Source: Phycisphaerae bacterium (GTDB taxonomy: Bacteria > Planctomycetota > Phycisphaerae > UBA1845). From it: a stretch of 47,169 bases of DNA. Below the pieces are notes generated by a model. That model did not search any database. It was not told where the DNA came from and saw only the letters and a program-made list of their open reading frames with translations. The position numbers and the translations under genes were made by a program. Shown in pieces: positions 9,940 to 41,474 of the stretch. Each line of letters begins with the position of its first letter. The stretch's first letter is position 1. Where the stretch lies: positions 1-47,169 of the forward strand of contig JAJDDX010000380.1 in the NCBI GenBank assembly GCA_029260055.1, read 5' to 3'.

Positions 9940-9962
9940 TGCTCTGTCCAACGACCAACGAT

Positions 9963-15858: not shown

Positions 15859-15862
15859 AGTT

Positions 15863-16420: not shown

Positions 16421-17430
16421 GCCAACTCGATCCGCCGCGCGAAGCGCCCGACGTGCGCCGCAACCTGATCGATGGATGCGGACGGCGCATCGACAGCTTG
16501 CGCATTTCCGTCACCGACGCGTGCGATCTGCGCTGCGTCTATTGCCGTCCCGGCATGGAGACGGGGGACGTGGTCAGCGAGAGGGCGCTTTCCGATGAGC
16601 AGCGCCTGCAGTTCGTTCGATTCCTGCATGACCGGCACGGCCTCGCCCAGGTGCGCATCACCGGTGGTGAGCCGCTGCTATACGAACCCGTCGTGTCGCT
16701 CGTCGAGAAGTTGCGCGCCAATGTGCCGGACGTGACGCTTGCCATGACGACCAGTGGACGACGGCTGACCGACCTCGGCGTTGCGCTTCGCCGAGCGGGG
16801 CTCGACCGCTTGAATGTATCTCTGGATTCGCTGAACCCCGATCGCTACCACCGCATCACCGGCGGCCGACTCGATGACGTACTTGCCGGGTTGGATTCAG
16901 CTAGTGACGCGGGTTTTGCGCCCGCCAAGGTCAACACCGTCGTGATGCGCGGCGTCAACGACGATGAAGTCGTCGACATTGTGGAGTGGGCGCTTCCGCG
17001 AGGCCACGTGATTCGCTTTCTGGAGGCGATGCCGATCGGGCCGGCCGCAGGGACAAACGGAAAGGCTTTCGTGCCCTCCTCCGAAGTGCGCGAGCGCATT
17101 GGGCGTCAATTCGAACTTGTCCCGCTTCGCGAGGATCCAGGCAGCACCGCGAAGGACTTCGAAGCGTCAAACGGCTCCGTGTCCGGCGTCGTCGGTTTCA
17201 TCAGTCCCGTCAGCGAGTCGTTCTGCGGCGACTGTCGCCGGATCCGTCTCACCGCGGATGGCCGACTCTATCCATGCCTGCTCGATGATCGCTCGGTCGA
17301 CATGCGGTCATCATGGTCGACCGGTTCATTTCATGCCGACCGCGCGGCCGCCAGCCTGAAACAAGCCGTTATCGACAAGCAGCCGCGGGGCCGCGCTCAG
17401 GGCACCCCGATGGTCACGCTCGGCGGGTGA
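16408..17430 (+). CDS. moaA: GTP 3',8-cyclase MoaA (molybdenum cofactor synthesis)
   Basis: This 340-residue radical-SAM enzyme catalyses the first step of molybdenum cofactor synthesis, turning GTP into 3',8-cyclo-GTP. The SAM-binding cluster ligands are C39, C43 and C46 (CDLRCVYC). The second, GTP-side cluster is C273, C276 and C290 (FCGDCRR...YPC). The TGGEPL motif is present, and the protein ends in the GG pair (MVTLGG) that MoaA inserts into its active site. The length is normal. The start overlaps the hemerythrin gene and has GGAGG just upstream. Its place at the end of this operon makes sense because the NapA-like enzyme needs the cofactor. No other moa genes are in the window. Confidence 0.93.
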   Translation: MAELSQLDPPREAPDVRRNLIDGCGRRIDSLRISVTDACDLRCVYCRPGMETGDVVSERALSDEQRLQFVRFLHDRHGLAQVRITGGEPLLYEPVVSLVEKLRANVPDVTLAMTTSGRRLTDLGVALRRAGLDRLNVSLDSLNPDRYHRITGGRLDDVLAGLDSASDAGFAPAKVNTVVMRGVNDDEVVDIVEWALPRGHVIRFLEAMPIGPAAGTNGKAFVPSSEVRERIGRQFELVPLREDPGSTAKDFEASNGSVSGVVGFISPVSESFCGDCRRIRLTADGRLYPCLLDDRSVDMRSSWSTGSFHADRAAASLKQAVIDKQPRGRAQGTPMVTLGG

Positions 17431-20745: not shown

Positions 20746-21170
20746 GGCGGAGTAGATTTTTTGGGCGGGGTGGAAGAATCGTTCCCGCCGTTCGAGGGTG
20801 CGTAGGGGAGAGGTGATGCCAGCCCCTTTCCCCGGTGACGATCAGGGCCTTCTTATTCTAGGGACGCCGTCACCGTTCCTGCCGTGATCGTTGCATCGAG
20901 CATCTGCAATTCAATACGCGAGTAGCGGCGGCACTTCGTCGCCGAGACTGATGGTTTTGGGGGGGCAGCCAGCGTCGACCCCGTTCGTATCTGCCGTTCA
21001 TTCAGGAAGTTGAGCAGATCGGGATGGTGTGGCGCGCTAGCCCAAGGCGCACGATCGCCCGAGGTCGATCCTCGCGCGGGCGATCGTGAGGTGCGCTCGC
21101 GCTATGGCCGCAACACGGTGTTCGCCGGCGGGTGAGGCACGTCCCGGTTCCGCATTCAGGAGGTTTCCCG
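20746..21170 (+). promoter_or_regulatory. Long conserved 5' leader with hairpins (copy 2)
   Basis: These 425 bases hold no gene and are homologous to 17549-17969. Matching hairpins are GGCGGG/CCCGCC (20764-20789), whose bases differ from copy 1 while pairing is kept, and GGCGGC/GTCGCC (20927-20943). A CAGGAGG ribosome site precedes the ATG at 21171. Confidence 0.45.
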
Positions 21171-24100: not shown

Positions 24101-25631
24101 GGCGTGCGAGAATGATCTACTGCCGAATAACTGCCTGATCAGCGGTACATGCCGCGGCGAAGGGGAGCTCAACCCGGCGAACGACTGCGAGGCTTGCGCT
24201 TCCGCAGCCTCGACTTCCGCCTGGTCGAACCTTCCCAACGGCACGACCTGCGACGACACTCTGTTCTGCACCGTCGACGAGTTCTGCACAGCCGGCGCGT
24301 GCGGCGGAGGTGGGGCTCGCAATTGCGAGGAAGGCATCGCCTGTACCGGCGACACGTGTAACGAAGGGACGAATCAGTGTGACCATACGCCCAACGACGC
24401 GTTGTGCCCGGACGACGGCGTGATCTGCAATGGTGCAGAGTTCTGCAACGCCGCTACCGGGTGCGATCACGCCGGCGTGCCGGACGGCACGGCGTGTGAT
24501 GACGGGATCTTCTGTAACGTTGGCGAGACGTGTACAGCGGGTGCATGCGGCAGCGGCGGCCCGCGCGACTGCTCCGACGCGTTCAGTTGCACCGCTGACA
24601 CGTGCAACGAGGCGGCTACGCAGTGCGAGAACGACATCGACCCCGGCTTCTGCCTGATTGCCAATGTGTGCGAGACCGAGGGTACGATCAATCCGGGCGA
24701 TGATTGCGAGGCGTGCGACCCGGCTGCGTCGACTTCGGCTTGGTCGGACCGTCCGGACGGCAGCGCCTGTGATGACGGCTTGTTCTGTAACGTCGACGAG
24801 GCGTGTACGGCCGGTGCATGCGGCGGCGGTGCGGCTCGCGATTGCGAAGAGGGCGTCTTCTGCACGGATGACACTTGCAACGAGGCGACCGACGAATGCG
24901 AGCACGCTGCGCTCGACGCACTATGTCCGGACGACGGTCAGTTCTGCAACGGTGACGAGTTCTGCCACATTACGGCGGATTGCGACCACACCGGTTCGCC
25001 GTGCAGCGGCCCGTGCGACGAGGTCGGCGACACTTGCCTGTGCGACCCGCCGGTGGTCGAGGACGTGGGTTCGCGTTACATGAAGATTGCCGGCATGCCG
25101 GCGGATTCGCTTGCTCCGATGGCGATCATCGTGACGGCTGATTGTCCCGGTGGCGTCCCGATGTATGTGACCGCTCCAGTGGAGTTCAACCTCGGATTGA
25201 CCGGGCCTTTCGCGAACCTCGGTCTACTGTCGACCGACCCGGCGGATGCCGTCTACTTGACACCCGCGGAATGGGGCGACCTGTACGTGACGGGTGGGCT
25301 CTTCACGCCGGATACGAATTACGTCGTGTTGTCCGACTGCGGTTCGCCGGGAGATCCCGCTTACTCCGAGCCCGGCATCGGAACGCCTTTCACCAGGGTA
25401 TGGTGCGATGTGGACAACAGCGGTGTCGTGACCTTCATCGACATCAACAGGATCGTACGCGGCTTCCAGGGTCTGTTCGACCTCGGAACGAAGGAGTCGG
25501 TCGACCTGAAGGGTGGCACGGCGGACGTATGCACGCCGAACCAGTCGATCAACTTCTTGGACATCACAGCCGCGGTCGAGGCATTCCAGGGTCTTCCGTA
25601 TGAGGCGAGTTGCCCGAATCCCTGCGACTAG
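21171..25631 (+). CDS. Secreted Cys-rich slime-mold-repeat protein with dockerin-like C-terminus (long, repeat-expanded paralogue)
   Basis: This is a 1486-residue exported protein with a signal peptide at residues 1-24 (ending PALGA). The N-terminal domain, Cys-rich chain and C-terminal dockerin-like pair (DVDNSGVVTFIDINRI and NQSINFLDITAAVEAF) match the shorter neighbour. The middle is enlarged by four additional 173-residue units, each holding modules such as CDDGLFCN..ETC.AG.CGGG, CEEGIACTGD.CNEATNQCDH, CPDDGVICNGAEFC and C.A..STS.WSNLPDGSACDD. The length difference from the shorter gene is exactly four units minus five residues. The product is probably an elongated, disulphide-rich surface or extracellular protein. 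ATG 21171 is chosen over upstream codons because of the AGGAGG site and the match to the paralogue's start (ATGAGTAGAG). Confidence 0.87.
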   Translation: MSRARSQFVTLGAVVLFAWPALGADFFMEPISASGSHTVAGSMITLDGGGQTVTLELRIDAWDPIPDVGVCGDLSLCSIAAQDCLIGACQGSNGLLNTYQARIDGSGYAGVLSPVLLPGNELINTSHPDYVFSGLTSIPAVDTSTINWAYGALLLFANQSPPYPGVDKYGGTLVIDVPLGASGDFTIGLFDDLNQTFMEDSNATAIVPINGFAAIIRVVCQTPADCDDGNVCTTDACEVGGTCSHTPNHPATHCCDPITGVLTVIDDGDECTDDVCNADGTVSHPPSPAGTACGDPSSTQCDFADSCDGAGVCLPNPAPAGTACGSPADTDCSNPDSCDGSGTCSVNNEPVGTPCGDQTTTDCSLPDTCNAAAACVANNLPMGTACGDPSNTDCTDPDTCNRSGICLANDAPNGTACDDGLFCNIGEACTSGACGGGSPRDCNDGLACTDDWCDEVGDVCVNDVLPGFCLIGGVCRGDGEANPANACEVCDPAASNTTWSAIPDGSACDDGLFCSVGETCTAGTCGGGAARDCEEGIACTGDTCNEATNQCDHAPNDALCPDDGVICNGAEFCNAATGCDHAGAPDGTACDDGLFCNIDETCTAGTCGGGTPNPCADGLACTSDVCNEATTACENDLLPDSCLIGGTCRGEGELNPANDCEACDSAASTSAWSNLPDGSACDDGLFCNVDETCTAGACGGGAARDCEDGIACTDDSCNEASDHCNNFPNDALCPDDGVICNGDEFCNAATGCDHTGVPDGTSCDDGLFCNVGETCTADACGGGGPRDCSDPFSCTDDTCNEALSQCENDISPGFCLINGICRGEGELNPANDCEACDTATSTTTWSNLADGSACDDGLFCNVNETCAAGTCGGGVARDCEEGIACTGDACNEATNQCDHTPNDALCPDDGVICNGAEFCNAATGCDHAGVPDGTVCNDGLFCNINETCTAGTCGGGEPNPCADGLSCTSDVCNEATTACENDLLPNNCLISGTCRGEGELNPANDCEACASAASTSAWSNLPNGTTCDDTLFCTVDEFCTAGACGGGGARNCEEGIACTGDTCNEGTNQCDHTPNDALCPDDGVICNGAEFCNAATGCDHAGVPDGTACDDGIFCNVGETCTAGACGSGGPRDCSDAFSCTADTCNEAATQCENDIDPGFCLIANVCETEGTINPGDDCEACDPAASTSAWSDRPDGSACDDGLFCNVDEACTAGACGGGAARDCEEGVFCTDDTCNEATDECEHAALDALCPDDGQFCNGDEFCHITADCDHTGSPCSGPCDEVGDTCLCDPPVVEDVGSRYMKIAGMPADSLAPMAIIVTADCPGGVPMYVTAPVEFNLGLTGPFANLGLLSTDPADAVYLTPAEWGDLYVTGGLFTPDTNYVVLSDCGSPGDPAYSEPGIGTPFTRVWCDVDNSGVVTFIDINRIVRGFQGLFDLGTKESVDLKGGTADVCTPNQSINFLDITAAVEAFQGLPYEASCPNPCD
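22584..24659 (+). repeat. Four tandem 519-bp coding repeats (plus a partial fifth)
   Basis: The same reference codon, just after ...CLI, recurs at 22584, 23103, 23622, 24141 and 24660: four intervals of exactly 519 bases with no indels. Each unit encodes 173 residues. The fifth unit diverges before the C-terminal domain. The paralogue has the equivalent point once, at 19386. Confidence 0.9.
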
Positions 25632-26784: not shown

Positions 26785-27286
26785 CTACGCCTCCTGGATT
26801 CACGGGGGCCGCGCATTTCGGCGGTCGAGTCTCGCCGAGGGTCGGTATCCTCGTTGCATTAGACGTATCGCGCCGGCGGACGTCCAATCTTGGTTCGAGA
26901 GCACGAGCCCTTCCGGGTGTCCCGTGATCGGACAGGCCTCTTCGGCGGCCGATCGAGTCGGTGGCAGTCATGTCGGGCGGTTTGCGTCATTTCGCACGGC
27001 GCTGCCCGGAATGGCGCGATTCGAGTAGTTCTTGAGGGCTGGAATCGTCGGTTTCAGGGCCCAAAGCGCGGGCGCGTCTCTGTTTAGCGGCTGCGGTCAG
27101 GTGCGGTTGACTGCCCGGCCTCTGGAACGGAAATTGCGTGGAGTCAATTGGCTCGCAAGCGGATCGGGTGGGATGGTGTGCCCGCATCGAGGTCCCGCGT
27201 GAGCCGATGCGCGTGCGTCCGGCGGTCGGGCGCACGGTCGCCGTTCGCCGGTGGGTTTGCGGATCGTTCGCGTAAGAGGTGTAGGG
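26785..27286. other. Intergenic stretch between divergent genes
   Basis: This 502-base gap separates the minus-strand lipocalin gene from the + strand 2-oxoacid oxidoreductase cluster, so promoters in both directions must lie here. I could not pick out convincing -35/-10 pairs. Short open frames on both strands lack ribosome sites and look like chance frames in GC-rich DNA. Confidence 0.5.
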
Positions 27287-29512
27287 ATGACCGAGCTGAC
27301 AATCTACGGGCGGGGCGGACAGGGCGGTGTGACGCTCGCAAAACTCATCGCGGAATCCTACTTCCTTCGCGACAAGCACGTTCAGGCGTTCGGTGTGTAC
27401 GCGGCTGAGCGTTCCGGCGCGCCGCTCCAGGCGTACGTGCGGATCGACGACGAAGAGATCACGAATCACAACCAGATCACGGAACCGGATCACGTGATCG
27501 TGCTGGATCGTACGCTGATCGGGCCTCGTGTCCTGACCGGCCTGAAGCCCGACGGCTGGATCATTCTCAATACATCGGAGTCACCGGAAGCGTACGGCGA
27601 GATGTTCCCAGGCCGTCGCGTGGCGACGATCGATGCGACGGCGATTGCCGTGGCGAACGGGCTCGGTACGCGCAGCGTTCCCATCGTCAACACGACCGTG
27701 CTCGGCGCCGCGATGCGGCTGTTCGAGCGCGACTTCACGGATGTGGAGGCGGCGCTCGCCGTCCTCAAGTTTGGTGGTGGCAATGTCACCAGCGCGCGGG
27801 AGGCATACGATTGCGTCAGCACATCGACGCTGCCGGGCGAGGCGGCGGCTGCTCCGGTCATGGGGCCGGCGGGGCGGGCGACGGGCCTGCTCGACGCCGG
27901 CGTTGGACTAGACCCACTCATCAAGACGGGCGGCTGGGCGACGCGCCAGCCTGACCGTCAGCGACTGACGCCTCCGTGCAATGACGGCTGCCCGGCCGGT
28001 AACGACGTGCAGGGCTTCGTGGCCGCGGTCGGCAAACAAGACTATACCGGCGCGCTGGAGATACTCCTCAGCACTTCGCCGCTTCCGGCTACGTGTGGGC
28101 GTGTTTGTCCCGCGCCGTGCATGGACGCCTGCAACCGGTCGATGATCGACGAGTCCATCAACATTCGTGAGCTGGAACGCTACGCGGCCGAGCGCGGCAC
28201 GCGGCCCGAACCGACCAAGCCGACGCGCAAGGAGCGTGTGGCGGTTGTCGGGTCGGGACCCGCCGGTCTCGGCGCCGCCTACCATCTGGCGAAGCTCGGC
28301 TACCCCGTCGAGTTGTTCGAAGCGTGCAGTGAACTCGGCGGTGTGATGCGGACGGGCATCCCGGCCTATCGCCTGCCGCGGGATGTGCTCGATGCCGAGA
28401 TCGATTACATCCTCAAGCAGGGCGTCGAAGCGCATACCGGGTATTACTTCCGACGTAGGGACCTTCTCGAGGCTACCAAGAAGTTCTCCGCTGTCTTTTT
28501 GGCGACCGGGCTTCAGGAGGTCAGGTCGCTCGACCTGGGCGTGGTGGCGGGTGGGTCGACGGACACGGTCCTGCAGGGGATCGACTTCCTCGATCAGGTT
28601 CGTCGGAATGAAGTTTCCGTCGAGGGCGAGCGCGTCATTGTGATCGGCGGAGGGAACACCGCGATGGACGCCGCGGGTAGCGCACGGCGCCTGGGGGCTG
28701 CCAGCGTGCGCGTCGTCTATCGCCGAACGCGCGAGCAGATGCCGGCCATCAAGGAAGAGGTCGAGGCGGCGCTCGAAGAGGGCATCGCTCTTGATGAGTT
28801 GGTGTCGCCGATTCGCCTGCAGGATAGCGGTGTCACGCCGCTGCTTACTTGCCAGCGCATGAAGCTTGGCGAGCCGGACGAGTCGGGTCGGGCGCGCCCC
28901 GTGCCGGAGACTTCCGAAGACGCCTTCTTCGATATTCCATGCGACCGCGTGATCCTGGCACTGGGCCAGTCGGCCGATCTGTCCATCCTGCCCGAGGGGT
29001 CCGAGATTCGCGACGGTGAGGCGCTGATGGGCTTGACGGAGGCGCCGGTCTTTTGCGGCGGCGACTTCGCGACGAATGACGGAACGGTGACAGCCGCGCT
29101 CGGCGCTGGGCGAAGGGCGGCTTTGCACGTTCACCGAACGCTCACCGATGAGGACCTCTTCCCGCCGGCATCCGAACCGATGGCCGGGACGGACGTGATG
29201 ACCACGCACGTATTCACACGGTCTCCGCGACAGGACGGCGGCACGATCGCGCACGACCTTCGGTGCCACAGCTTCACGGAAGTCCACACCGGCTACAGCG
29301 ACAACGGCGAGGTGAACCAAGCCGTGTTGGAAGCCAAGCGGTGTTTCAGTTGCGGCGTGTGCAACACATGCGATCGCTGTCAGACCTATTGCCCGGAGGG
29401 GATCCTGTTCCGCGAGGGCGACGGGTATCGGTTCGATTACGACTACTGTAAGGGCTGCGGGGTCTGCGCCTCGGTTTGTCCTCGCGGTGTCATTTATATG
29501 TCGGAGCTCTGA
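27287..29512 (+). CDS. Fused pyruvate:ferredoxin oxidoreductase gamma subunit, GltD-like flavoprotein and delta ferredoxin
   Basis: This is a 741-residue fusion of three parts. Residues 1-190 are the gamma domain (TIYGRGGQGGVTLAKL, GAPLQAYVRI). Residues 215-620 resemble the glutamate synthase small subunit: an N-terminal Fe-S adaptor with CNDGCPAGNDVQGF and CGRVCPAPCMDAC, an FAD-binding GSGPAGLGAAYHLAKLG, and an NAD(P)-binding GGGNTAMDAAGSARRLGA. Residues 680-741 carry two [4Fe-4S] motifs (CFSCGVCNTCDRCQTYCP and CKGCGVCASVCP), matching the delta subunit. It would move electrons between pyruvate oxidation and NAD(P)H without a separate ferredoxin, which is inference. GTG/ATG codons upstream of 27287 are in frame, but the gamma fold begins at this ATG. 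The porA-like gene follows after 18 bases. Confidence 0.87.
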   Translation: MTELTIYGRGGQGGVTLAKLIAESYFLRDKHVQAFGVYAAERSGAPLQAYVRIDDEEITNHNQITEPDHVIVLDRTLIGPRVLTGLKPDGWIILNTSESPEAYGEMFPGRRVATIDATAIAVANGLGTRSVPIVNTTVLGAAMRLFERDFTDVEAALAVLKFGGGNVTSAREAYDCVSTSTLPGEAAAAPVMGPAGRATGLLDAGVGLDPLIKTGGWATRQPDRQRLTPPCNDGCPAGNDVQGFVAAVGKQDYTGALEILLSTSPLPATCGRVCPAPCMDACNRSMIDESINIRELERYAAERGTRPEPTKPTRKERVAVVGSGPAGLGAAYHLAKLGYPVELFEACSELGGVMRTGIPAYRLPRDVLDAEIDYILKQGVEAHTGYYFRRRDLLEATKKFSAVFLATGLQEVRSLDLGVVAGGSTDTVLQGIDFLDQVRRNEVSVEGERVIVIGGGNTAMDAAGSARRLGAASVRVVYRRTREQMPAIKEEVEAALEEGIALDELVSPIRLQDSGVTPLLTCQRMKLGEPDESGRARPVPETSEDAFFDIPCDRVILALGQSADLSILPEGSEIRDGEALMGLTEAPVFCGGDFATNDGTVTAALGAGRRAALHVHRTLTDEDLFPPASEPMAGTDVMTTHVFTRSPRQDGGTIAHDLRCHSFTEVHTGYSDNGEVNQAVLEAKRCFSCGVCNTCDRCQTYCPEGILFREGDGYRFDYDYCKGCGVCASVCPRGVIYMSEL

Positions 29513-29530
29513 TCAGACGGGAGGCCGATC

Positions 29531-30703
29531 GTGGGTAAAGCACTGGTGACGGGGAATAACGCCGCGGGGCACACGCTGGCGCTCGCCGGCGAGGCGAATC
29601 GCGACGCGCGAGGCTGCGCGTGCGGCGCCTATCCGATCACTCCGCAGACCGAGATCATCGAGTTCCTGCGTAGCTTCGAGTTTTCGAAGGGCCGGGTAGT
29701 GCCGGTGGAATCCGAGCATAGCGCCATGGGCGTGTGCATCGGTGCGTCGCTTGCGGGCGGGCGGTCGTTTACCGCCAGTTCGTCGAACGGCCTGGCTTAT
29801 ATGGTGGAAAACATCTTCGCGGCCGGCTTCTATCGACTGCCGATCGTGATGATCTCGGTGAATCGTACGCTCGGTCCACCGTGGAACATCTGGGTCGACC
29901 AGGGCGACAGCCTCATGTTCCGTGATGCGCCGTGGCTTCAGTTCTACACGGAATCGCACCAGGACTTGGTGGACACGATTCTGCTGGCGTTCCGCGTGGC
30001 CGAGGACCCGCGCGTCATGCTTCCCGCGACGGTTGCGCTGGATGGATTCGTCACGTCGCACACGCTCATGGGCGTCGAGTTGCCGGACCAAGAACAGGTG
30101 GACGCTTATCTGCCGCCGTGTCACGTGCCGCACCGCCTTCAGCATGAGCATCCGACGGCCGTCGGCGGCTTGACCTGGCCGCGCGAGACTGAGCGTCACC
30201 GGCGCGACATCCAAGCCGCCATGGAGAATGTGGAAACGGTGCTGGCCGAGGCGATCGACGAGTTCGAGGCGATATTCAAAAGGCGCCCGCACGGCACGAT
30301 GTCAGCCGAGCACACAGAGGACGCCGAAGTCGTCATCATCGCATGCAACACCATGGCTCGTACGCTCCGGCGGGTGGTCAAGGAGCGTCGCGAGCAGGGC
30401 GAGAAGATCGGCATGATCAAGTCCAAGCTCTTTAGACCCTTCCCGCGGGCTGATCTGATCAAGGGGGTCGCAAACGCGAAGCACATCGGCGTGCTCGATC
30501 GCAACCACTCACCCGGCTCCGGTGGCATCTTCTGGCAGGAGGTGGCGACCACGCTTCGCCAGAAGCCGGACATCGTGGTCCAGGACTACCTGGTCGGCCT
30601 CGGCGGCGGCGATGTGACGCCGACGATCATCAACGAGATTATCGACGACCTCGTCGGGCGCTCCGAGTCGAGTGAGCCGGTGTGGAAGGAGGTGGCCGTA
30701 TGA
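29531..30703 (+). CDS. porA: Pyruvate:ferredoxin oxidoreductase alpha subunit
   Basis: This is a 390-residue subunit of the 2-oxoacid:ferredoxin oxidoreductase family, holding the pyrimidine-binding half of the thiamine site. YPITPQTEIIEFL near residue 37, the ESEHSAMG segment and the LDGFVTSHT loop are typical of PorA, the pyruvate-type alpha subunit, rather than KorA. The start is GTG with GGGAGG seven to ten bases upstream. Its stop overlaps the next gene's ATG (ATGA), so alpha and beta are translationally coupled. With its neighbours it would convert pyruvate and CoA to acetyl-CoA, CO2 and reduced ferredoxin, or run in reverse for CO2 fixation. Substrate is inferred from family motifs. 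Confidence 0.9.
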   Translation: MGKALVTGNNAAGHTLALAGEANRDARGCACGAYPITPQTEIIEFLRSFEFSKGRVVPVESEHSAMGVCIGASLAGGRSFTASSSNGLAYMVENIFAAGFYRLPIVMISVNRTLGPPWNIWVDQGDSLMFRDAPWLQFYTESHQDLVDTILLAFRVAEDPRVMLPATVALDGFVTSHTLMGVELPDQEQVDAYLPPCHVPHRLQHEHPTAVGGLTWPRETERHRRDIQAAMENVETVLAEAIDEFEAIFKRRPHGTMSAEHTEDAEVVIIACNTMARTLRRVVKERREQGEKIGMIKSKLFRPFPRADLIKGVANAKHIGVLDRNHSPGSGGIFWQEVATTLRQKPDIVVQDYLVGLGGGDVTPTIINEIIDDLVGRSESSEPVWKEVAV

Positions 30704-31614
30704 CCACTGCAACGACACCGAACGGTGAGACGCGATGCGGATCGGTGCTGCGGCCCGGCAACACCAACTGCGCGGGTTGCGGCATGTCGCTGGGCTTTCA
30801 ACTACTCGACCAGGCGCTCAAGAGCGAGCCGCTGACGCTCGTCATTCCCGCGTGCTGCGGCATCGTGACGGCGGGTGCGTTCCCGACGACGGCGTACGGC
30901 GTGCCGACGGCGGCTGCCACGTTCGCCAGTTCGCCCGCGGTGGCGACCGGCATCAGCAGCATCGCCGAAGTGAACAACGAAGATCATCCCGTGATCTGCT
31001 GGGCGGGTGACGGCGGCACGTACGACATCGGTCTGGCCACGCTCTCCGCCGCGGCCGAGCGCAACGAGAATTTGATCTACGTCTGCTACGACAACGAGAT
31101 CTACGGCAACACGGGCGGACAGCGAAGCAGCGCGACGCCGGAGGGCGTGTCGACGACGACGAGCCCGCGCGGCAAGATCGAACGCAAGAAGGACATTATG
31201 GGGATCATGGTGGCGCACCGCATTCCCTACGCGGCGACGTTGTCGGTAGCGCACCATGAAGATTTCATTCGGAAGATCGAAACGGCCCGCGCGACGCAGG
31301 GGTTCAGGTTCCTGCTCATTCACTCGCCGTGTCCGACCGGGTGGAAGTCGGAGGCGGACGAGAGCGTCGACCTGATCCGATACGCCGTGGGTTGTGGTCT
31401 TTTCCCTCTTTACGAAGTCTATGACGGGATGCGTTATCGCATCAACGCCGAGCCGGACGGCACGCCACTGGAGGAGTACACCTCCAGGCAGCGTCGATTC
31501 ACGCGGTCGAAGGTCGATTTCTCGGCTCTTCAGACGAACATCGACGAGCAGTGGCGGTATCTCAGCGAGATGGCGCGGGCATTTCCGGCGGATTCAGGAG
31601 CGAGCGATGAATGA
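30700..31614 (+). CDS. porB: Pyruvate:ferredoxin oxidoreductase beta subunit
   Basis: This 304-residue subunit binds thiamine diphosphate and one [4Fe-4S] cluster. CAGCGMSLG near the N-terminus supplies two cluster Cys, with a third near CCGIV and a later one in the VGCGLFPLYE region. The diphosphate/Mg motif is GDGGTYDIG with the downstream NEIYGNTGGQRS. ATG 30700 overlaps the porA stop and is preceded by AAGGAGG. The length is typical of PorB. The stop overlaps the start of the next gene by eight bases, extending the coupled run. Confidence 0.9.
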   Translation: MTTATTPNGETRCGSVLRPGNTNCAGCGMSLGFQLLDQALKSEPLTLVIPACCGIVTAGAFPTTAYGVPTAAATFASSPAVATGISSIAEVNNEDHPVICWAGDGGTYDIGLATLSAAAERNENLIYVCYDNEIYGNTGGQRSSATPEGVSTTTSPRGKIERKKDIMGIMVAHRIPYAATLSVAHHEDFIRKIETARATQGFRFLLIHSPCPTGWKSEADESVDLIRYAVGCGLFPLYEVYDGMRYRINAEPDGTPLEEYTSRQRRFTRSKVDFSALQTNIDEQWRYLSEMARAFPADSGASDE

Positions 31615-33205
31615 GTTGTTGATGGGGGATGAGGCCGTCGCGTTGGGGGCTCTTCACGCCGGAATCGCCGGCGCGTTTGGCTACCCCGGCACGCCGGCTA
31701 CCGAGATTCTAGAGAGCATCCAGGCGCGCGTACGCGCCGGCGAAACGGACATTTCGGCCCGTTGGTCGGCCAACGAGAAAGTCGCCTACGAGGAGGCGCT
31801 CGGCGCGTCGTACGCCGGGCACCGAGCGCTGGTGTCGATGAAGCACGTCGGCCTGAACGTGGCGGCTGATCCGTTTATGAGCTCGGCGTTGACCGGTGCC
31901 AACGGCGGACTGGTGCTCGCGGTGGCGGACGATCCGGGCATGCACTCGTCGCAGAACGAGCAAGACAGCCGCTATTTTGGCCAGTTCGCCCAGATCCCGG
32001 TGCTGGAGCCGTCGAACCAGCAGGAAGCGTACGACATGACGCGCGAGGCTTTCGAGACCTCGGAGTGTTTGCACATTCCCGTCATGATTCGCCTGGTCAC
32101 GCGCCTCTCTCACAGCCGCGCGAACGTCAAGACGGCGCCGCCCGTCGACGCGACGCCGCTCCCGCGTGCTAAGGACTGGCGCGAGTGGACGCTGCTGCCG
32201 GTGAACGCGCGGAAGCGTTTCAGCCGCCTACTCGACCTGCAGGAAGTGCTCGGCGAGTACGCGCACGATTCGACATTTAACTCACTGACGCTCAACGGGC
32301 CCAAGGGCATCCTCGTGACGGGGCTTGCCTACAACTACGTGCGTGAGGCGATCGGCTCGGACAACTCGTACTCGATTCTAAAGATCGGCGCGTATCCGGT
32401 GCCGATGGGCAAGATTCGGGAATTGGTGGATCACTGCAAGGAAGTGCTCCTCGTCGAAGAGGGGTACCCGTTCGTCGAGAAGCAACTTGCCGGTCTGATG
32501 GGCCTTCCCGGCAAGCACATTCGCGGCAAGCTGGATGGGGCCTTACCGCGCCAGGGCGAGATGACGACCGATCTGGTGCGCGACGCGCTGGGCTTGCCGA
32601 TGCGTGATCTGCATCCCGCGGAAGAGTCCGTGCCCGGACGTCCTCCGCAGTTGTGCGGCGGTTGCCCGCACTGCGACACATACAAGCTGCTGACCGATGC
32701 GCTGGCGGACGGCGACCAGCCCTACTACTTCGGCGACATCGGGTGCTATACGCTGGCCGCCTTGCCGCCCTACAACGCGATGGAGACGTGCGTCGACATG
32801 GGTGCGTCGATCGGCATGGCGATCGGAGCAGCCAAGGTGGGAGAGCACCCGGTCGTGGCGACAATCGGCGACTCGACGTTCCTCCATTCAGGGATGAGCG
32901 CGCTGGTCGGTGCTGCGCATGACGACATCAACATGACGGTCATCGTGCTCGACAACGCATTGGTCGCCATGACGGGTGGCCAAGAGGCGATGGCTACCGG
33001 CGACGACATGATTCGCGTCATCAAGGGGCTCGGGGTGAACGAGGACCACGTGGTCTACCTGGAGCCGCTGCCCAAGCTGTACGATCAGAACGTGGAGTTA
33101 TTCCGCAAGGAGCTCGCGCACTGCGGTCTTTCGGTGATCGTGGCGTGCCGACCCTGCATTCATGCCAAGAAGAAGGCCGCCGCTCCCGTTGCGGCGAGTG
33201 CATAA
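31607..33205 (+). CDS. iorA: Indolepyruvate:ferredoxin oxidoreductase alpha subunit (IorA-like), lacking the ferredoxin tail
   Basis: This 532-residue protein has the IorA layout: an N-terminal pyrimidine-type domain (LLMGDEAVALGALHAG, GYPGTPATEI, SMKHVGLNVAADPFM), a transketolase C-like middle, and a thiamine-diphosphate domain with LCGGCPHCD, GDIGCYTL, TIGDSTFLHSG and DNALVAMTGGQ. Family members oxidise aryl 2-oxoacids (indolepyruvate, phenylpyruvate) to aryl-CoAs. They normally end in a two-cluster ferredoxin domain. Here the protein stops after CRPCIH and an Ala/Lys tail, so that domain is missing. Electrons must leave through another protein, perhaps the delta domain of the fusion at 27287. 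ATG 31607 has GGAG six bases upstream and overlaps porB. Its partner, the beta subunit, is in the next gene. Confidence 0.87.
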   Translation: MNELLMGDEAVALGALHAGIAGAFGYPGTPATEILESIQARVRAGETDISARWSANEKVAYEEALGASYAGHRALVSMKHVGLNVAADPFMSSALTGANGGLVLAVADDPGMHSSQNEQDSRYFGQFAQIPVLEPSNQQEAYDMTREAFETSECLHIPVMIRLVTRLSHSRANVKTAPPVDATPLPRAKDWREWTLLPVNARKRFSRLLDLQEVLGEYAHDSTFNSLTLNGPKGILVTGLAYNYVREAIGSDNSYSILKIGAYPVPMGKIRELVDHCKEVLLVEEGYPFVEKQLAGLMGLPGKHIRGKLDGALPRQGEMTTDLVRDALGLPMRDLHPAEESVPGRPPQLCGGCPHCDTYKLLTDALADGDQPYYFGDIGCYTLAALPPYNAMETCVDMGASIGMAIGAAKVGEHPVVATIGDSTFLHSGMSALVGAAHDDINMTVIVLDNALVAMTGGQEAMATGDDMIRVIKGLGVNEDHVVYLEPLPKLYDQNVELFRKELAHCGLSVIVACRPCIHAKKKAAAPVAASA

Positions 33206-33366: not shown

Positions 33367-36300
33367 ATGGAATTCAACATGATTCTCGCCGGCGTGGGCG
33401 GGCAGGGCATTCTCACTATCGCGCAGGCGATCTCGCACGCCGCGATGCGACGCGGATACAACGTCAAGCAGTCCGAGGTTCACGGCATGAGCCAGCGCGG
33501 CGGTGCGGTGCAGGCGCATCTGCGATTCGCCGACCATGAACTGCACAGCGACCTGATCCCGCTCGGGCGCGCGGACATGGTGCTCGCGGTCGAGCCGCTC
33601 GAGTCGCTCCGCTATGTGGAGTATCTCAGCGAGGACGCCACGATCATCACGAGCAGCATCCCGTTCGTGAACATTCCGAACTATCCGCCGATCGAAGAGG
33701 TGCTTCAGCGCGTCGCGGGGTACAGCGATCACGTGGTGGTCGACGCCAAGCGACTCGCCAAGGCGGCCGGTTCCGCACGCGCCGAGAACATGGTGATGCT
33801 TGGTGCGGCATCGGGCCGACTCGATTTCTCTCCGGCCGATCTCGAAGCGGTGATCGCGAAACTCTTCGCGGCCAAGGGCGAGCGCATCGTCGAGATCAAC
33901 GAGCGGGCGTTCCGTTTCGGTCGAAGCGCGACGGCTGCCTACCGCGACTGCATACGCCGTGGTGCGGCGAGCTTGGCCGTGCGTCATTGGATTCAGTCGG
34001 TCACGCCCGAGCAGCTCGCCGACATGGAAACGCCGGACCTGGCGGCTGTCGGCCTGGACAGCGAGTCGTGCGAGCTATCGCCCGCGGAGACGCACGCGAT
34101 CGGGCAGACGATCAGCCAGGTACTCGACGACGATCGGAAGCAGCTTTACGAGCATGAGGTCTACAGCATCGTGGAACTCGTCGGGGCGATTCACTCGCCG
34201 CGGCACCTGCTCGTGCGCAAGGGCGAACGGGTCGAGCCCGATGATCTCGACGGTTTCGAAGGCGACAAGGTCGTGCTCAAGATCGTCTCACCGGACATTG
34301 TCCACAAGACGGAGTCGGGCGGACTCGTCTTCGTGCCCAACTCGGTGGATGCTATCAACCGGGAGATCGAGCATCTCATCGCGGTGCAGAGCAAGGTGTC
34401 GAAGCGCATCCACGGCGTGCTGGTGGTCGAGTTCATCGAGACGGCGAAGCGCGGCCTGGGAAGCGAACTCTTCGTTGGTATCAGGGCTACGCGCGAGTTC
34501 GGTCCGGTCATTGCCGCCGGCCTGGGCGGCGTCGATACGGAGTTCCTTGCCGACAAGATGCAGCGGGGCTTCGCGGTGGCCAAGGCGTCCGCCGTCGACA
34601 TCTCGCCCGATGAGTTCTTCGAGCTGTTCAAACGAACGGCTGCGTACGAGCTTCTTGCCGGCAAGGTCCGCGGCCACGAACGGATCGTGTCGGACGGTGA
34701 GCTGATTCGCTGTTTTCGGGCCTTCATGGCGATCGCGCGGCGGTTCTGCATCGAAGGGATCGACGGCACCGGATTGCTGGAGTTGGAGGTCAATCCATTC
34801 GCGTTCGCGCAGGAGCGGCCGGTCCCGCTCGACGGGCGCGGTCGTCTCGGCAAGCTCACTTGCGCCACGGTCGGCAGACCCATCGCCAAGATCGACAAGA
34901 TGCTTGAACCCAAGTCGATTGCGGTGGTGGGGGTTTCCGGCAAGCGCCAGAACTTCGGCCGCATCATCTTGAACAACATACAGAAGTGCGGCTTTCCGAA
35001 GGATCGCCTTTACGTCATCAAAGATGGCGAGAAGGAGATCGACGGCGTGCCCTGTGTGCCGACGCTGGAGCAGCTTCCCGAACCCGTCGATCTGCTCGTA
35101 GCCGCTACCGGTGCCGATCAGGTTCCCGCACTGGTCCAGGATGTGATCGGTCCGGGTGCCACCGGCGCGTCGCGATGTGCGTCGGTGATCCTGATCCCCG
35201 GCGGCCTAGGCGAGAAAGAGGGGACGGAGAACATCCAGGAGGAGATACGAGAGCTCATTCAGGGCTCGCGCATTCGTCCTGACGGCGGTCCGGTCTTCCT
35301 CGGCGGCAACTGCATGGGCATGCGTTCTCGCCCCGGCTGCTATGACACTTTCTTCATTCCGGAGGCGAAGCTCGACCCGCGACGCGACGCTCCGGCGAAG
35401 CGCTCCGCCCTGATCTCCCAGAGCGGTGCGTTCATTATTACACGCATGAGCAACCTCGAGGTCCTCGATCCGACATTCGCCATTTCCGCCGGCAACCAGG
35501 CGGACTTGACGATGTCGGACCTGCTGACCGCCGTCGGTGGACGGGACGATATTGACTGCGTCGGTGTCTACGTCGAGGGTTTCAACGACTTGGACGGTCT
35601 GGCGTTTATTCGCGCCGTACAGCGAATTACCGCACTGGGCAAGGTGGTCGTCTTCTACAAGGCGGGTCGTACGTCGGCGGGTCGTTCGGCGGCGAAGGGC
35701 CACACGGCGTCGGTCGCCGGCGACTACGATGTGTGCCAGGCGGCCGTTACCGATGCGGGTGCCATTGTGACGGATACCTTCAAGGAATTCGAGCAGCTCC
35801 TCGAACAGGCGACCGCGTTTCACGGCAAGCAAGTTCGCGGACGGCGCATCGGAGCAATCAGCAACGCCGGGTACGAGGCGGTCGGGATGGCCGACACGGT
35901 CAAGGGCGCTCGCTACCAGGTTGAGATCGCCAAGCTCTCGGACACGGCGCGGCAGCGGCTTTCCGAAACACTGGCGAAGCACCGCCTGGACAACTTGGTC
36001 AACGCGAGTTGCCCGCTGGACCTGACGCCGATGGCCAACGATGAGGCGTACGAGGACTGCATCCGCGTCATGATGGAGGACGACGACATCGATGCGGTGG
36101 TGGTCGGCTGCGTACCGCTCTCGCCGCAGCTATTGACCACGCCCGACGAGCTGTCCAATCCCGGATCACTCGTGGCGCGGGTACCGCGGATCTTCGCGGA
36201 GTACGACAAACCGCTCATCTTCGTGGTCGACTGTGCCGCACCGTACGACAAGTTCGCACGGATGGTTCGCGAGGCCGGCGTACCCGTGTTCCGTTCCGCC

Positions 36301-36426
36301 GATCAGGCGATTCGTTCGCTCGGCCGCTACCTCTGTCATCGAACGATCGCGGAAGAGAAACACGGTGAGCCGGCGCTCGCACCGCCGAGAAGTGAACCCG
36401 CGGCGCCTGCGGTGGCTTTGTCGTAA
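33367..36426 (+). CDS. Fusion of indolepyruvate oxidoreductase beta subunit (IorB) with ADP-forming acyl-CoA synthetase
   Basis: This is a 1019-residue fusion. Residues 1-190 are an IorB domain (ILAGVGGQGILTIAQAI, VHGMSQRGGAVQAHLRF). Residues 236-488 are an ATP-grasp beta half of ADP-forming acetate-CoA ligase, with the conserved HKTESGG (His313). Residues 506-1019 are the alpha half, with a CoA-binding Rossmann start (IAVVGVSGKRQNFGR) and the phosphohistidine loop GHTASVAG (His779). The IorB domain completes the IorA encoded upstream; the ligase part would turn the acyl-CoA made there into the acid while making ATP from ADP. The reaction chain is inference from the families. ATG 33367 has CGGAG upstream and starts the IorB fold exactly. 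A gap of 161 bases separates it from iorA. Confidence 0.88.
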   Translation: MEFNMILAGVGGQGILTIAQAISHAAMRRGYNVKQSEVHGMSQRGGAVQAHLRFADHELHSDLIPLGRADMVLAVEPLESLRYVEYLSEDATIITSSIPFVNIPNYPPIEEVLQRVAGYSDHVVVDAKRLAKAAGSARAENMVMLGAASGRLDFSPADLEAVIAKLFAAKGERIVEINERAFRFGRSATAAYRDCIRRGAASLAVRHWIQSVTPEQLADMETPDLAAVGLDSESCELSPAETHAIGQTISQVLDDDRKQLYEHEVYSIVELVGAIHSPRHLLVRKGERVEPDDLDGFEGDKVVLKIVSPDIVHKTESGGLVFVPNSVDAINREIEHLIAVQSKVSKRIHGVLVVEFIETAKRGLGSELFVGIRATREFGPVIAAGLGGVDTEFLADKMQRGFAVAKASAVDISPDEFFELFKRTAAYELLAGKVRGHERIVSDGELIRCFRAFMAIARRFCIEGIDGTGLLELEVNPFAFAQERPVPLDGRGRLGKLTCATVGRPIAKIDKMLEPKSIAVVGVSGKRQNFGRIILNNIQKCGFPKDRLYVIKDGEKEIDGVPCVPTLEQLPEPVDLLVAATGADQVPALVQDVIGPGATGASRCASVILIPGGLGEKEGTENIQEEIRELIQGSRIRPDGGPVFLGGNCMGMRSRPGCYDTFFIPEAKLDPRRDAPAKRSALISQSGAFIITRMSNLEVLDPTFAISAGNQADLTMSDLLTAVGGRDDIDCVGVYVEGFNDLDGLAFIRAVQRITALGKVVVFYKAGRTSAGRSAAKGHTASVAGDYDVCQAAVTDAGAIVTDTFKEFEQLLEQATAFHGKQVRGRRIGAISNAGYEAVGMADTVKGARYQVEIAKLSDTARQRLSETLAKHRLDNLVNASCPLDLTPMANDEAYEDCIRVMMEDDDIDAVVVGCVPLSPQLLTTPDELSNPGSLVARVPRIFAEYDKPLIFVVDCAAPYDKFARMVREAGVPVFRSADQAIRSLGRYLCHRTIAEEKHGEPALAPPRSEPAAPAVALS

Positions 36427-38798: not shown

Positions 38799-41474
38799 AT
38801 GAAGAGACAGAGTCAACAGGTTAGCGTTCCGCGGCGTTGTCGACGAGTTTCAGCGGCTGGACTGTGCGGAGTGGCCGTCCTGCTGATGCTCGCCACAGAT
38901 GTGGTTGGGCAGACCGACCCCATGGTGATACCCGCCGTGCCCGTCGATGTCGATTCGGGCGTTGTGGACAACACCACGGGCACCGTGACCACGGTCTTCT
39001 CCACGGTGATCCAGGTCCCTGAGGCCGTCTGGGTTCGACTGGATTTTGACGAAGTGCTCCTTGCGGGTGATATCGGGGCGGGCACGGCCTCGACGCTTCG
39101 GATGACTTCCCTAGCCGACGGCGGCTATCAGGTCATGAACGCGACGCACGTGGCCCAATGGCATCACTCCTCGGCCTATTTCAACGGCGATTCGGTCAAA
39201 GTTGAGGTCATCGCTCATCCGCACACGGGGCCCAACCGGCTCGTCATCAGCGAAGTGACCATCGGTGTCGTCGGCGCGGACGGGGGCGAGCGGACCATCT
39301 GCGACGGCGTGGACGACCGTACGTTCACCACCGACAGGCGCGTCGGGCGGGGCCGAAATGCAGCCGGAGAAGCCAAATGCACGGCGTTCATCATCAATGA
39401 CTGCCAGCACTGCCTTCTCAGCGCCGGTCACTGCGAGGGCCACTTGAACCCGGCGGGACAGATCCATTTCAATGTCCCGAAGTCCACGGCTGCCGGCACC
39501 CCCGTGATGTCCAATCCGAATGATCAGTATGCCATTGACGTGACATCATGGTCGTTCACCGCGAACGGCTCGGGTGACGATTGGAGCTACTTCGGGTGTT
39601 TTCCGAACCCGACCACCGGGCTGACGCCATACCAAGCGCAGTGGAAGTCCTTCGCGATGGCGATGCCGCCGGCGGCGTCCGAGCAGGTCCTTCGCGTGAC
39701 CGGGTATGGTGTGACGAGCGCCCCGGTCAACCCGAACTTGAACCGGGCGCTCAAGAAGGACACGGGCCCCTATACGTCTCGTACCGGCTCGAATATCGCG
39801 TATCGAGTTGACACTACCAGTGGTAACTCCGGTTCCCCCGTCATGCTCGAGGGCAACCCCGATGCAGCCTTCGCCATTCATGAGAGCGGCGGATGTGGCG
39901 CCGGCGGAGCGGGAGCGAACCACGGCACCGGATTGAACAACGCGGGGCTGCAGGCCGCTCTGGCGGCGCCGAAGGGTGTGTGCACAGCCAGTTTGGAAGT
40001 GAGCGTCGTGCCCAACCCCCACGCTTGTGGCGGTTGTGGACCCGGAGCCACGACGGCGGTCACGTTGAACCTCACGAATAACTCGGGCGGCGTGATCGAC
40101 GTGGATTGGACCAGCGCGATTGTCGACGGCGGTTGCGTCACAGGTGTCGTTCCCCCCGCGGGCACGGAACTCGCCATCGCCGCCGGAGCGACGAGGGCAG
40201 TTACCGTCACGCTCGAACATGACCATCCGGGCGCCTGCCCCGGGACCGGAGCGCAGATCGATTTCGCGGGCGTCATCGTTGCCGGCGGGGTTGGCGCCGA
40301 CAGCGACCAACTGGTGGTCGTGTGCCCGGACAACTTGACGGTGCGTGTCGTTCCCAACCCCCATGCGTGTGGCGGTGCTTGCGGCCCCGAGGGTGCCTCG
40401 GCGGTCACTCTGGAACTCACGAATGGTTTTGCCGGGCCAATCGACGTCGATTGGACGGGCACGGTCGTCGGCGGCGTCTGTGTAACCGGCGTAACTCCGG
40501 CTTTGGGTGCCGAACTCGCCATCGCGCCGGGAACGACCCGGGCAGTGGCCATCACGCTCGATCACAACCATCCTGGCGCGTGCCCCGGTGGCGGCGCGCA
40601 GGTGGATTTTGTGGGCACGGTCGTGGCCGGCGGAGCCGGTGCCGATACCGACCAATTGGAGGTCGTGTGCGAGCCCGTGTTGGGCGTGAGTGTCGTTCCC
40701 AATCCCCATCCCTGTGGTGGGGCTTGCGGCCCCGGGGGTACGTCGGCAGTCACGCTGGAACTCTCGAATCACTCAGTTGCAGGGGTGATCGACGTGACTT
40801 GGACCAGCGCGATGATCGGAGGCGGTTGCGTCACGGGCGTGGCGCCCGTCGCGGGTGTGGAACTCGCCATCGCTCCGGGAGAAACCAGGTTAGTGCCGAT
40901 TACGCTTGACCATGACCATCCGGACGAGTGCCCCGGAAACGGGGCCGTGATAGGTTTTGTGGGCAGTATCGTGGCGGGCGCGGGCGGTTCCGTGGCCGAC
41001 CAACTGGTGGTCATGTGCGACGACATGTTGGGTGTGACTGTCGTACCGAACCCCCATATGTGCGGAGGCGCTTGTGGCCCGGAAGGCACGTCGGGGGTCA
41101 CGTTGCAACTGACGAACGGGTTTGCCGGGCCGATCGACGTGGACTGGACCAGCGCGATCGTGGGAGGCGGTTGCGTCACGGGCGTGGTTCCCGCCACGGG
41201 CACTGAACTCGCCATCGCCTCCGGCGAGACCAGGTTCGTGCCCATCAAGCTCGAGCACAACCATCCGGATGCGTGCCCTGGAACCGGCGCGCTCATAGAT
41301 TTCGCGGCTGTCGTGGTTGCCGGTGGGGTCGGTAGTGGCGACGAACAACTGGTGGTCCTGTGCCCGGGCTTGCCTATCCCGACCCTCTCAGAGTGGGGAC
41401 TGATCGCGATGACGCTGCTGGGGCTCTCGGTAGGGACGATCGTGTTCAGCCGGCGCCGACGTGCGCCCGCGTAG
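38799..41474 (+). CDS. Secreted trypsin-like serine protease with four repeat domains and an IPTL-CTERM tail
   Basis: This is an 891-residue exported protein. The signal segment is at residues 20-38 (ending VVGQ). A proprotein-convertase-like or beta domain comes first, then a trypsin-like protease at about 165-390, with catalytic His in LSAGHCEG, a candidate Asp in NDQYAIDVTSW or GDDWSYF, and Ser in TTSGNSGSPVM. Residues 400-855 hold four tandem domains of about 115 residues that begin VVPNPHxCGG and contain AVTLELTN and CPGxGAxxDF segments. The protein ends with IPTLSEWGLIAMTLL, further hydrophobic residues and an RRRR tail. This is a textbook IPTL-CTERM sorting signal, which suggests processing at the cell envelope. 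ATG 38799 has GGAG nine bases upstream. Confidence 0.87.
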   Translation: MKRQSQQVSVPRRCRRVSAAGLCGVAVLLMLATDVVGQTDPMVIPAVPVDVDSGVVDNTTGTVTTVFSTVIQVPEAVWVRLDFDEVLLAGDIGAGTASTLRMTSLADGGYQVMNATHVAQWHHSSAYFNGDSVKVEVIAHPHTGPNRLVISEVTIGVVGADGGERTICDGVDDRTFTTDRRVGRGRNAAGEAKCTAFIINDCQHCLLSAGHCEGHLNPAGQIHFNVPKSTAAGTPVMSNPNDQYAIDVTSWSFTANGSGDDWSYFGCFPNPTTGLTPYQAQWKSFAMAMPPAASEQVLRVTGYGVTSAPVNPNLNRALKKDTGPYTSRTGSNIAYRVDTTSGNSGSPVMLEGNPDAAFAIHESGGCGAGGAGANHGTGLNNAGLQAALAAPKGVCTASLEVSVVPNPHACGGCGPGATTAVTLNLTNNSGGVIDVDWTSAIVDGGCVTGVVPPAGTELAIAAGATRAVTVTLEHDHPGACPGTGAQIDFAGVIVAGGVGADSDQLVVVCPDNLTVRVVPNPHACGGACGPEGASAVTLELTNGFAGPIDVDWTGTVVGGVCVTGVTPALGAELAIAPGTTRAVAITLDHNHPGACPGGGAQVDFVGTVVAGGAGADTDQLEVVCEPVLGVSVVPNPHPCGGACGPGGTSAVTLELSNHSVAGVIDVTWTSAMIGGGCVTGVAPVAGVELAIAPGETRLVPITLDHDHPDECPGNGAVIGFVGSIVAGAGGSVADQLVVMCDDMLGVTVVPNPHMCGGACGPEGTSGVTLQLTNGFAGPIDVDWTSAIVGGGCVTGVVPATGTELAIASGETRFVPIKLEHNHPDACPGTGALIDFAAVVVAGGVGSGDEQLVVLCPGLPIPTLSEWGLIAMTLLGLSVGTIVFSRRRRAPA
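39999..41373 (+). repeat. Four tandem coding repeats of 342-348 bp
   Basis: Units begin at GTG codons 39999, 40341, 40686 and 41034 (spacing 342, 345 and 348 bases) and each encodes a domain starting V-x-V-V-P-N-P-H. The spacing varies by one codon each time, so these repeats are older or less constrained than the exact 519-bp repeats of the Cys-rich gene. Confidence 0.85.

Follow-up and report, generated by a model that had tools for sequence, protein, structure and literature searches.

The contig JAJDDX010000380.1 from a Phycisphaerae bacterium (GenBank assembly GCA_029260055.1), of which we analyzed positions 1 to 47,169 (hereafter, the window), carries a gene at 33367–36426 whose product joins IorB to a complete ADP-forming acyl-CoA synthetase (ACD) in one chain. 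This IorB-ACD fusion is confirmed as real and conserved. Judged by its sequence, the protein probably serves as gamma subunit in an indolepyruvate-type 2-oxoacid:ferredoxin oxidoreductase (OFOR) that is encoded by two genes and has one cluster, and it bears a complete C-terminal ACD that would use acyl-CoA to make ATP. The fusion is apparently undescribed; each of its parts and their pairing are already known. Papers identified by a PMC number are cited here from excerpts of their text.

Domain architecture and catalytic residues

Translated on the + strand, 33367–36426 gives 1019 residues with a single terminal stop and no internal one. The open reading frame as listed opens at a GTG at 33295, and the relatives and the alignment favor a start at the ATG at 33367. 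Along the chain, an IorB/POR-gamma module (residues 1–190) is followed by a linker (191–240) and the complete ACD (241–992), the latter in beta-alpha order:

33367–36426, + strand: IorB-ACD fusion gene, 1019 residues plus stop
33397–33924, + strand: IorB/POR-gamma (OFOR domain III) module, residues 11–186 (module set as 1–190); Pfam PF01558, E 7e-36
33937–34086, + strand: linker, residues 191–240, consisting of a helical IorB tail (191–219) and then a variable, weakly ordered junction (220–240)
34117–34839, + strand: ATP-grasp domain (ACD beta), residues 251–491; ATP-grasp_5 PF13549, E 4e-24; 4xyl_B
34303–34305, + strand: H313, ATP-grasp phosphohistidine in a V-S-P-x-x-x-H-K motif, aligned to H535 of 8wzu and to the histidine of 4xyl_B and 9y43
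34912–35286, + strand: CoA-binding domain (ACD alpha), residues 516–640; CoA_binding_2 PF13380, E 2e-13
35404–35802, + strand: Succ_CoA_lig-like flavodoxin domain (ACD alpha), residues 680–812; PF13607, E 6e-31
35701–35703, + strand: H779, swinging-loop phosphohistidine, aligned to H256 of 8wzu and, by hand count, to residue 254 of 4xyl_A

All four Pfam domains (POR, ATP-grasp_5, CoA_binding_2, and Succ_CoA_lig) score above their gathering thresholds, PF01558 with 124 bits against 27.4, and the ACD half thus has its ATP-grasp, CoA-binding, and ligase domains all present. The IorB half passes the NCBIfam model NF005324 for the indolepyruvate oxidoreductase beta subunit (255.3 bits; cut-off, 222) and misses the cut-off of TIGR03334 (151 versus 205.8). 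Against the NCBIfam equivalogs for acetate-, 3-hydroxypropionate-, and 4-hydroxybutyrate-CoA ligases, the best score of the ACD half is 220.9 bits, far below cut-offs of 567 to 1300, so that none of those substrate classes can be assigned to it. In phmmer searches, this half aligns with 9y43 (3-hydroxypropionate--CoA ligase), 8wzu (4-hydroxybutyrate--CoA ligase), and ckcACD1. We take residue 254 of 4xyl_A to be the catalytic histidine of ckcACD1. H256 and H535 of 8wzu are the swinging-loop and ATP-grasp phosphohistidines of the published ACD mechanism (PMC11494057), and their counterparts H779 and H313 are conserved in all 27 rows of an alignment of the window with 26 of its 29 close relatives (L026, L030, and L031 were left out). 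A preliminary description of this DNA had placed two modules in one chain and named both histidines; the Pfam domains and the uninterrupted translation bear out the former, and the histidines are present at the positions it gave.

The fusion is conserved among relatives

A scan of genome contigs yielded 30 loci, one of which (L033) is a distant archaeal ACD and the remaining 29 of which are close relatives of the fusion. The junction is crossed in one frame by 24 of these 29 (L004–L025, L029, and L032), at 55–69% identity; L021 is without the first 26 residues. The other five include L026, in which IorB and ACD are split into two adjacent genes, and four loci that end at contig edges (L027, L028, L030, and L031). 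The break in L026 (L026:9600-9780, in a record titled as a chromosome) falls in the variable linker, either as a natural split or as a slip in the sequence.

Both parts of the linker are nearly fixed in length. The first (191–219) spans 29 residues in 23 of 24 full-length rows and 25 in the remaining row, and the second spans 19–22 residues. Mean pairwise identity falls to 0.21 in the poorly conserved, roughly 20-residue junction, versus 0.52–0.69 in the domains. The ratio of nonsynonymous to synonymous differences (pN/pS), computed against four relatives, is 0.28–0.37 for the IorB half, 0.33–0.38 for the synthetase half, and 0.55–0.69 for the linker.

These observations bear on the concern, raised in the preliminary description, that a sequencing error might hide a stop between residues 190 and 236. 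Relatives with separate genes do exist, as an artifact that merged two genes through a frameshift or missed stop would lead one to expect. The passage of 24 of 29 relatives from other assemblies through the junction in one frame, the constant length of the first linker part, and pN/pS values below 0.4 on both sides of the linker reduce the chance of such an artifact to almost nil. The open frames that cross the junction exclude a hidden stop family-wide, and together with pN/pS they rule out a frameshift as well.

Structure model

A model of the fusion was built from 39 aligned rows, 24 of them full fusions and the remainder separate ACD or IorB genes, and has a mean predicted local distance difference test score (pLDDT) of 87.8 and a predicted template modeling score of 0.76. 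In VIA-align comparisons, model residues 241–996 superpose on the 3-hydroxypropionyl-CoA synthetase 9y43_B (Z 37.2, root-mean-square deviation 3.9, 694 aligned), and the alpha part superposes on 8wzu_B (Z 38.6, 451 aligned) and on ckcACD1 4xym_C (Z 38.4, 457 aligned). The IorB half, modeled alone as the first 219 residues (pLDDT 92.1), matches OFOR gamma chains or domains (3on3, 3g2e, and 6n2n) with Z 20.8 and the CoA-bound Moorella pyruvate:ferredoxin oxidoreductase (PFOR) 6ciq with Z 17.8. The first 18 rows matched by this half are all oxoacid oxidoreductase gamma chains or domains, with Z between 13 and 21; the first unrelated row has Z 5.6. In the linker, the model places helices at 172–197, 202–211, and 214–219 (the IorB tail), followed by about 20 residues with pLDDT near 70.

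A shared iorA-iorB-acd unit and the probable origin of the fusion

To the loci from the contig search we added 47 further loci, most of them chosen from good hits (L053–L092 are such picks, not a random sample). After omission of fragments and duplicates (L001–L003, L030, L031, L033–L037, and L045–L052), 75 loci were compared: the fused form, counting the window, accounts for 31, separate IorB and ACD frames for 33, and partial or cut loci for 11. ACD directly follows IorB in 31 of the 33 separate-frame loci, with IorA in front wherever the contig extends that far; 20 of these adjacent pairs belong to the phylum of the L015 genome (Acidobacteriota), nine to that of the L029 genome, and two to that of the window. 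The two remaining separate-frame loci are the split L026 and L038, in which acd stands apart, in front of iorA-iorB. A separate-gene iorA-iorB-acd operon also occurs within the window's own family (L107, fetched after the comparison), and its IorB aligns over residues 1–215. The IorB tail that forms the first linker part is already present in separate-gene relatives such as L053 and L059. That the two enzymes are separate proteins elsewhere, as the preliminary description stated, is supported by these 31 loci as well as by the separate indolepyruvate oxidoreductase (IOR) and ACS2 of Pyrococcus furiosus; it had missed both the shared unit and the absence of a ferredoxin domain from IorA.

Trees of all three proteins put the fused loci on one side. 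The fused rows plus L026 separate from the others in the IorA tree (31 rows versus 31, Shimodaira–Hasegawa-like approximate likelihood ratio test [SH-aLRT] 100) and in the IorB tree (32 rows versus 34, SH-aLRT 99). The fused side of the ACD tree (SH-aLRT 96) also includes L027 and L028, which were scored as unfused only owing to contig ends. Because iorA, iorB, and acd are found as separate adjacent genes in 31 of 75 loci from three phyla and cluster jointly, their link is independent of the fusion.

A second ACD tree, built with more care from 48 selected rows and including additional stand-alone synthetases, contains a 36-row clade (100/100) that holds all 33 fused rows, L026, and two stand-alone ACDs, L105 and L039. 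A strict single clade of fused proteins is therefore not what this tree gives. Since the approximately unbiased test does not reject a strictly monophyletic group of fused rows (p-AU 0.086), we infer that L105 and L039 represent later losses of the IorB half rather than second origins of the fusion, and no independent repeated fusion was seen among the loci compared. We read the trees as pointing to one fusion event in Planctomycetota, followed by IorB losses and by transfer into other lineages (Acidobacteriota and Myxococcota-like), the rows of which are nested inside. The fusion probably derives, as one derived clade, from the shared iorA-iorB-acd unit.

Three read-through frames that resembled fusions (G923, G827, and G941) each resolved into two genes with an intervening stop (L053, L054, and L057). 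IorB and ACD lie in the same frame there with a single stop between them (L057:4663-4665, L053:4315-4317, and L054:1071-1073), an arrangement from which a fusion could arise easily.

Distribution

Genome surveys at E ≤ 1e-60 found matches in 16 of 392 genomes of the window's phylum, with at least three full-length fusions (G000, G019, and G192); in 28 of 377 genomes of the phylum of L029, at least six of them across the junction (G402, G428, G481, G578, G593, and G678); and in 84 of 347 genomes of the phylum of L015, with at least three full-length fusions (G396, G782, and G812). The three phylum surveys scored two candidates per genome, and their counts are lower bounds. Within the window's order, 44 of 101 genomes match, and 30 of 101, window included, have the full-length protein in one frame. 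Seven locus pairs are the same DNA (L093 = L004, L094 = L006, L095 = L007, L097 = L008, L045 = L021, L046 = L029, and L049 = L015), so the counts from the contig search, the phylum surveys, and the order survey are not additive. The lineages that carry the fusion are mostly uncultured bacteria.

The preliminary description would have given up its claim of novelty for an architecture both widespread and characterized. The fusion is indeed common in one order, and no characterization was found: a search of titles and abstract starts in the open-license PMC literature, with subscription papers and preprints outside its scope, returned no description of IorB joined to ACD among the matches listed. 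The excerpt of PMC9386147 likewise holds nothing on such a fusion.

The IorA partner and the probable electron route

The partner subunit is encoded directly in front of the fusion:

31607–33205, + strand: IorA, with POR_N plus TPP_enzyme_C, and four conserved cysteines for one proximal [4Fe-4S] cluster, without a C-terminal ferredoxin domain

This arrangement recurs in 30 of the 31 fused loci compared; the remaining locus, L021, begins inside the fusion. In L019 (L019:7704-8945), IorA is apparently broken or frameshifted, and only residues 218–526 align in frame beside the fusion. The TIGR03336 (IOR_alpha) match to the window IorA covers positions 1–540 of 595, ends before the ferredoxin domain, and stays below the cut-off (515 bits versus 650.9). 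The CxxCxxCxxxC motif is absent from all 65 IorA rows of the iorA-iorB-acd unit (row L041 is without its C-terminus), and as a control, the same pattern was found at residue 603 of a classical IorA in the same genome. C351, C354, C381, and C518 are invariant in 19 of 19 aligned rows, as is the thiamine pyrophosphate (TPP) motif G422-D423...N451 (A2 numbering, in which the first residue precedes the ATG); we presume the TPP-motif and proximal-cluster roles of these residues from family knowledge. With no ferredoxin domain and four invariant cysteines, IorA looks like a one-cluster enzyme that would be obliged to pass its electrons to an outside carrier. An OFOR of this kind, StOFOR, lacks a ferredoxin domain, has one [4Fe-4S] cluster, and reduces external ferredoxin (PMC5020499).

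The genome of the window also encodes a classical IOR with a ferredoxin domain (IOR_alpha, 674 versus 650.9; Fer4 at 596–619) and a single-chain PFOR, and has six POR-gamma domains in total. The classical IorAB (L104, C177) directly precedes a hydantoinase/caprolactamase-alpha-like gene.

Proposed reaction, direction, and channeling

In the reaction that we propose, IorA and the IorB half would carry out oxidative decarboxylation of a 2-oxoacid on TPP, with electrons exiting via the one proximal [4Fe-4S] cluster to a separate ferredoxin while CoA accepts the acyl group. The attached ACD would then convert acyl-CoA, ADP, and Pi to the acid, CoA, and ATP via phospho-H779 and phospho-H313, and the CoA so freed would return for the next oxidoreductase turn. 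The net result would be a single assembly that turns a 2-oxoacid into an acid and CO2 and yields reduced ferredoxin and ATP. Both reactions and their direction are predicted from family membership.

Several observations weigh against this proposal. Stand-alone ACDs, 49–56% identical over the ACD, occur in genomes that have no IorB match at E ≤ 1e-20 (three of six genomes tested: G1128, G1221, and G340; the G1221 genome is only 78% complete), and two of these ACDs, L105 and L039, nest within the fused clade, so the ACD can serve other sources of acyl-CoA. L026 manages without a covalent link. Some neighboring genes hint at substrates other than aryl acids. ACD chemistry is, moreover, reversible, and the direction is therefore not fixed by sequence. 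An assimilatory route, in which acid, CoA, and ATP give an acyl-CoA that is reductively carboxylated to a 2-oxoacid and on to an amino acid, draws on this reversibility and on two precedents: Geobacter iorAB-paaK is placed under tryptophan in a table, in a section on amino acid biosynthesis and regulation (PMC2700814), and a biosynthetic role is considered possible for a Bacteroides IOR that neighbors an AMP-forming ligase (PMC13285125). We consider this route unlikely. With the prephenate dehydratase domain that the genome encodes, the cells can probably synthesize phenylalanine de novo, and the contig carries a respiratory gene cluster; the ADP-forming type of the synthetase, together with the lesser need for salvage synthesis that the dehydratase domain implies, favors the oxidative direction.

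It would be more surprising still if the ACD half were a degenerate regulatory module that makes no ATP, as in the PatZ-type acetyltransferases, with which it has a fold in common (9isq and 9it0). PatZ is not known to have ATP chemistry. Both phosphohistidines are invariant in the 27 rows of the fusion, PatZ 9isq has a gap opposite the swinging-loop histidine in the alignment, and no GNAT domain is found in the fusion by Pfam; we regard such a role as highly improbable.

The preliminary description, whose interpretation is supported in part, went further and suggested direct channeling. As a hypothesis, the ACD may sit on the wing domain of the oxidoreductase, with acyl-CoA passing over and CoA passing back within one assembly, so that ATP could be drawn from 2-oxoacids at very low free CoA. 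The covalent link, the presence of the fusion in three phyla, and the near-fixed linker length speak for this arrangement. The split in L026, the stand-alone ACDs, two of which nest in the fused clade, and the poor conservation of the junction, the second half of the linker, speak against it. We give such channeling a rather low probability.

Neighboring genes and the substrate

The 2-oxoacid substrates are most likely aryl-pyruvates, as suggested by membership in the IorA/IorB family, with 2-oxobutyrate or pyruvate as possible alternatives; a 2026 study reports that no motif reliably predicts indolepyruvate oxidation (PMC13290082). Upstream of iorA, the window holds three genes for what looks like a separate NAD(P)-linked pyruvate-type OFOR (27251–31614):

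27251–29512, + strand: a 753-residue fusion of PorG, a GltD-like NAD(P)/FAD module, and a 2x[4Fe-4S] tail
29531–30703, + strand: PorA
30682–31614, + strand: PorB, whose end overlaps the start of IorA

The PorG-GltD protein was considered as a general source of ferredoxin and rejected, because it lies within the operon only in the window among the 75 loci compared; in L012, a 63% identical homolog lies 5.7 kb off on the other strand.

The same two activities could instead act on a nonaromatic 2-oxoacid (2-oxobutyrate from methionine, or a pyruvate-type substrate), with indolepyruvate as a mere family label, and the neighbors lend this some weight. A Cys/Met pyridoxal phosphate (PLP) enzyme follows the fusion by 3–69 nt in L005, L011, and L013, and the unfused acd by 4 nt in L058; with homologs near L028 and L090, such genes occur at six of 78 fetched loci. 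Methionine gamma-lyase is the best NCBIfam match of the enzyme in L005 and L011, and that of L013 belongs to the same Pfam family. A malic enzyme gene stands ahead of IorA in L007 and another is found upstream in L022, POR operons stand directly before IorA in the window and, as a different set, in L022, and the classical IOR of the genome could handle aryl acids. On the other side, IorB passes the indolepyruvate-beta cut-off (255 versus 222), and IorA scores 515 bits against IOR_alpha. The methionine-lyase matches in L005 and L011 are below the cut-off of that model, the PLP gene of L058 passes a cystathionine gamma-synthase family model, and the neighbors concerned are found in a minority of loci. 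A nonaromatic substrate is thus a serious possibility, which we nonetheless rate below an even chance. The aryl substrate of the preliminary description is likely rather than established, given that the neighbors in some loci include a second oxidoreductase of pyruvate type, a malic enzyme, or genes resembling methionine gamma-lyase.

Ten neighbor clusters recur in at least three loci, and nine of them were scanned (C6 was outside the scan). These nine comprise an Rrf2 regulator, the Cys/Met PLP enzyme, a sigma-54 regulator, PCMT, a histidine kinase, ResB, a PRK/uridine kinase, an enoyl-CoA hydratase, and DUF6599; an aminotransferase was sought as a recurrent neighbor, and none is among them. 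The Rrf2 cluster (one member, L038, scanned) occurs in 11 of the 75 loci, none fused. L012 carries genes for a TrpE-like protein and an aminotransferase of class IV upstream.

Other features of the window

The respiratory-looking cluster at 864–16420 holds cytochrome b, a 1038-residue protein with many CxxCH motifs, a molybdopterin oxidoreductase, a multiheme cytochrome (PF13447), several ferredoxin-like proteins, and a YHS/TRASH protein. Beyond it, 16408–17430 encodes what by eye is a MoaA-like protein. Two long, secreted-looking proteins with Cys/Asp-rich repeats (17970–20369 and 21132–25631) have their N- and C-terminal regions in common; the longer of them, the only one scanned, has no Pfam match at 1e-6. 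The gene at 38799–41474 presumably encodes a protein that starts trypsin-like, contains four repeats, and carries an IPTL-type sorting signal at its C-terminus, as judged by eye.

Significance and comparison with known systems

If our proposal is correct, the fusion would covalently tie a ferredoxin-reducing oxidation of 2-oxoacids to substrate-level phosphorylation, a link made by nature within Planctomycetota, in a group that is largely uncultured. It predicts that fusion-bearing lineages make ATP from amino-acid-derived 2-oxoacids, and it renders the long-assumed handover from IOR to ACD directly testable with two proteins. The natural series of separate, fused, and again split genes, and of ACDs that apparently lost IorB, is a ready test set for channeling. 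Naming the protein only IorB or only acetate--CoA ligase overlooks part of it.

The pairing of the two enzymes has precedents. The same two steps have been proposed for P. furiosus as IOR followed by ACS2, which acts on phenylacetyl- and indoleacetyl-CoA (PMC3942289), and in a thaumarchaeon, IOR and ACS2 are likewise separate members of one proposed route (PMC5817080). IOR and VOR genes lie near an ADP-forming ligase in one bacterial order, a proximity like that seen here, and the excerpt mentions no fusion (PMC13285125). Thermococcus kodakarensis IOR has been studied by pull-down, with no mention of a synthetase found in the excerpt (PMC12016516). Archaeal fusions are reported in which ATP-grasp is joined to CoA-ligase parts within CoA ligases (PMC11237513). 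A chain that unites IorB with an ACD is described in none of these excerpts.

The window proteins share the IorA (POR_N plus TPP_C) and IorB (POR gamma) families with IorAB of P. furiosus and T. kodakarensis but differ in that the window IorB bears an ACD and the window IorA is without the C-terminal ferredoxin domain. Sulfolobus tokodaii StOFOR likewise has one [4Fe-4S] cluster and no ferredoxin domain (PMC5020499); unlike the present system, it is of the a/b type, with domains III-I-II fused, and has no ACD. The ADP-forming 3-hydroxypropionate--CoA ligase of Nitrosopumilus maritimus (9y43) is also a single-chain ACD with ATP-grasp first, followed by the CoA-binding and ligase domains, yet it is 24% identical, has no oxidoreductase part, and belongs to another pathway. 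Finally, Candidatus Korarchaeum ACD1 (4xyl/4xym) has the same alpha and beta parts with both histidines, whereas in ACD1 and in P. furiosus ACS2 these parts are separate chains that are not joined to IOR.

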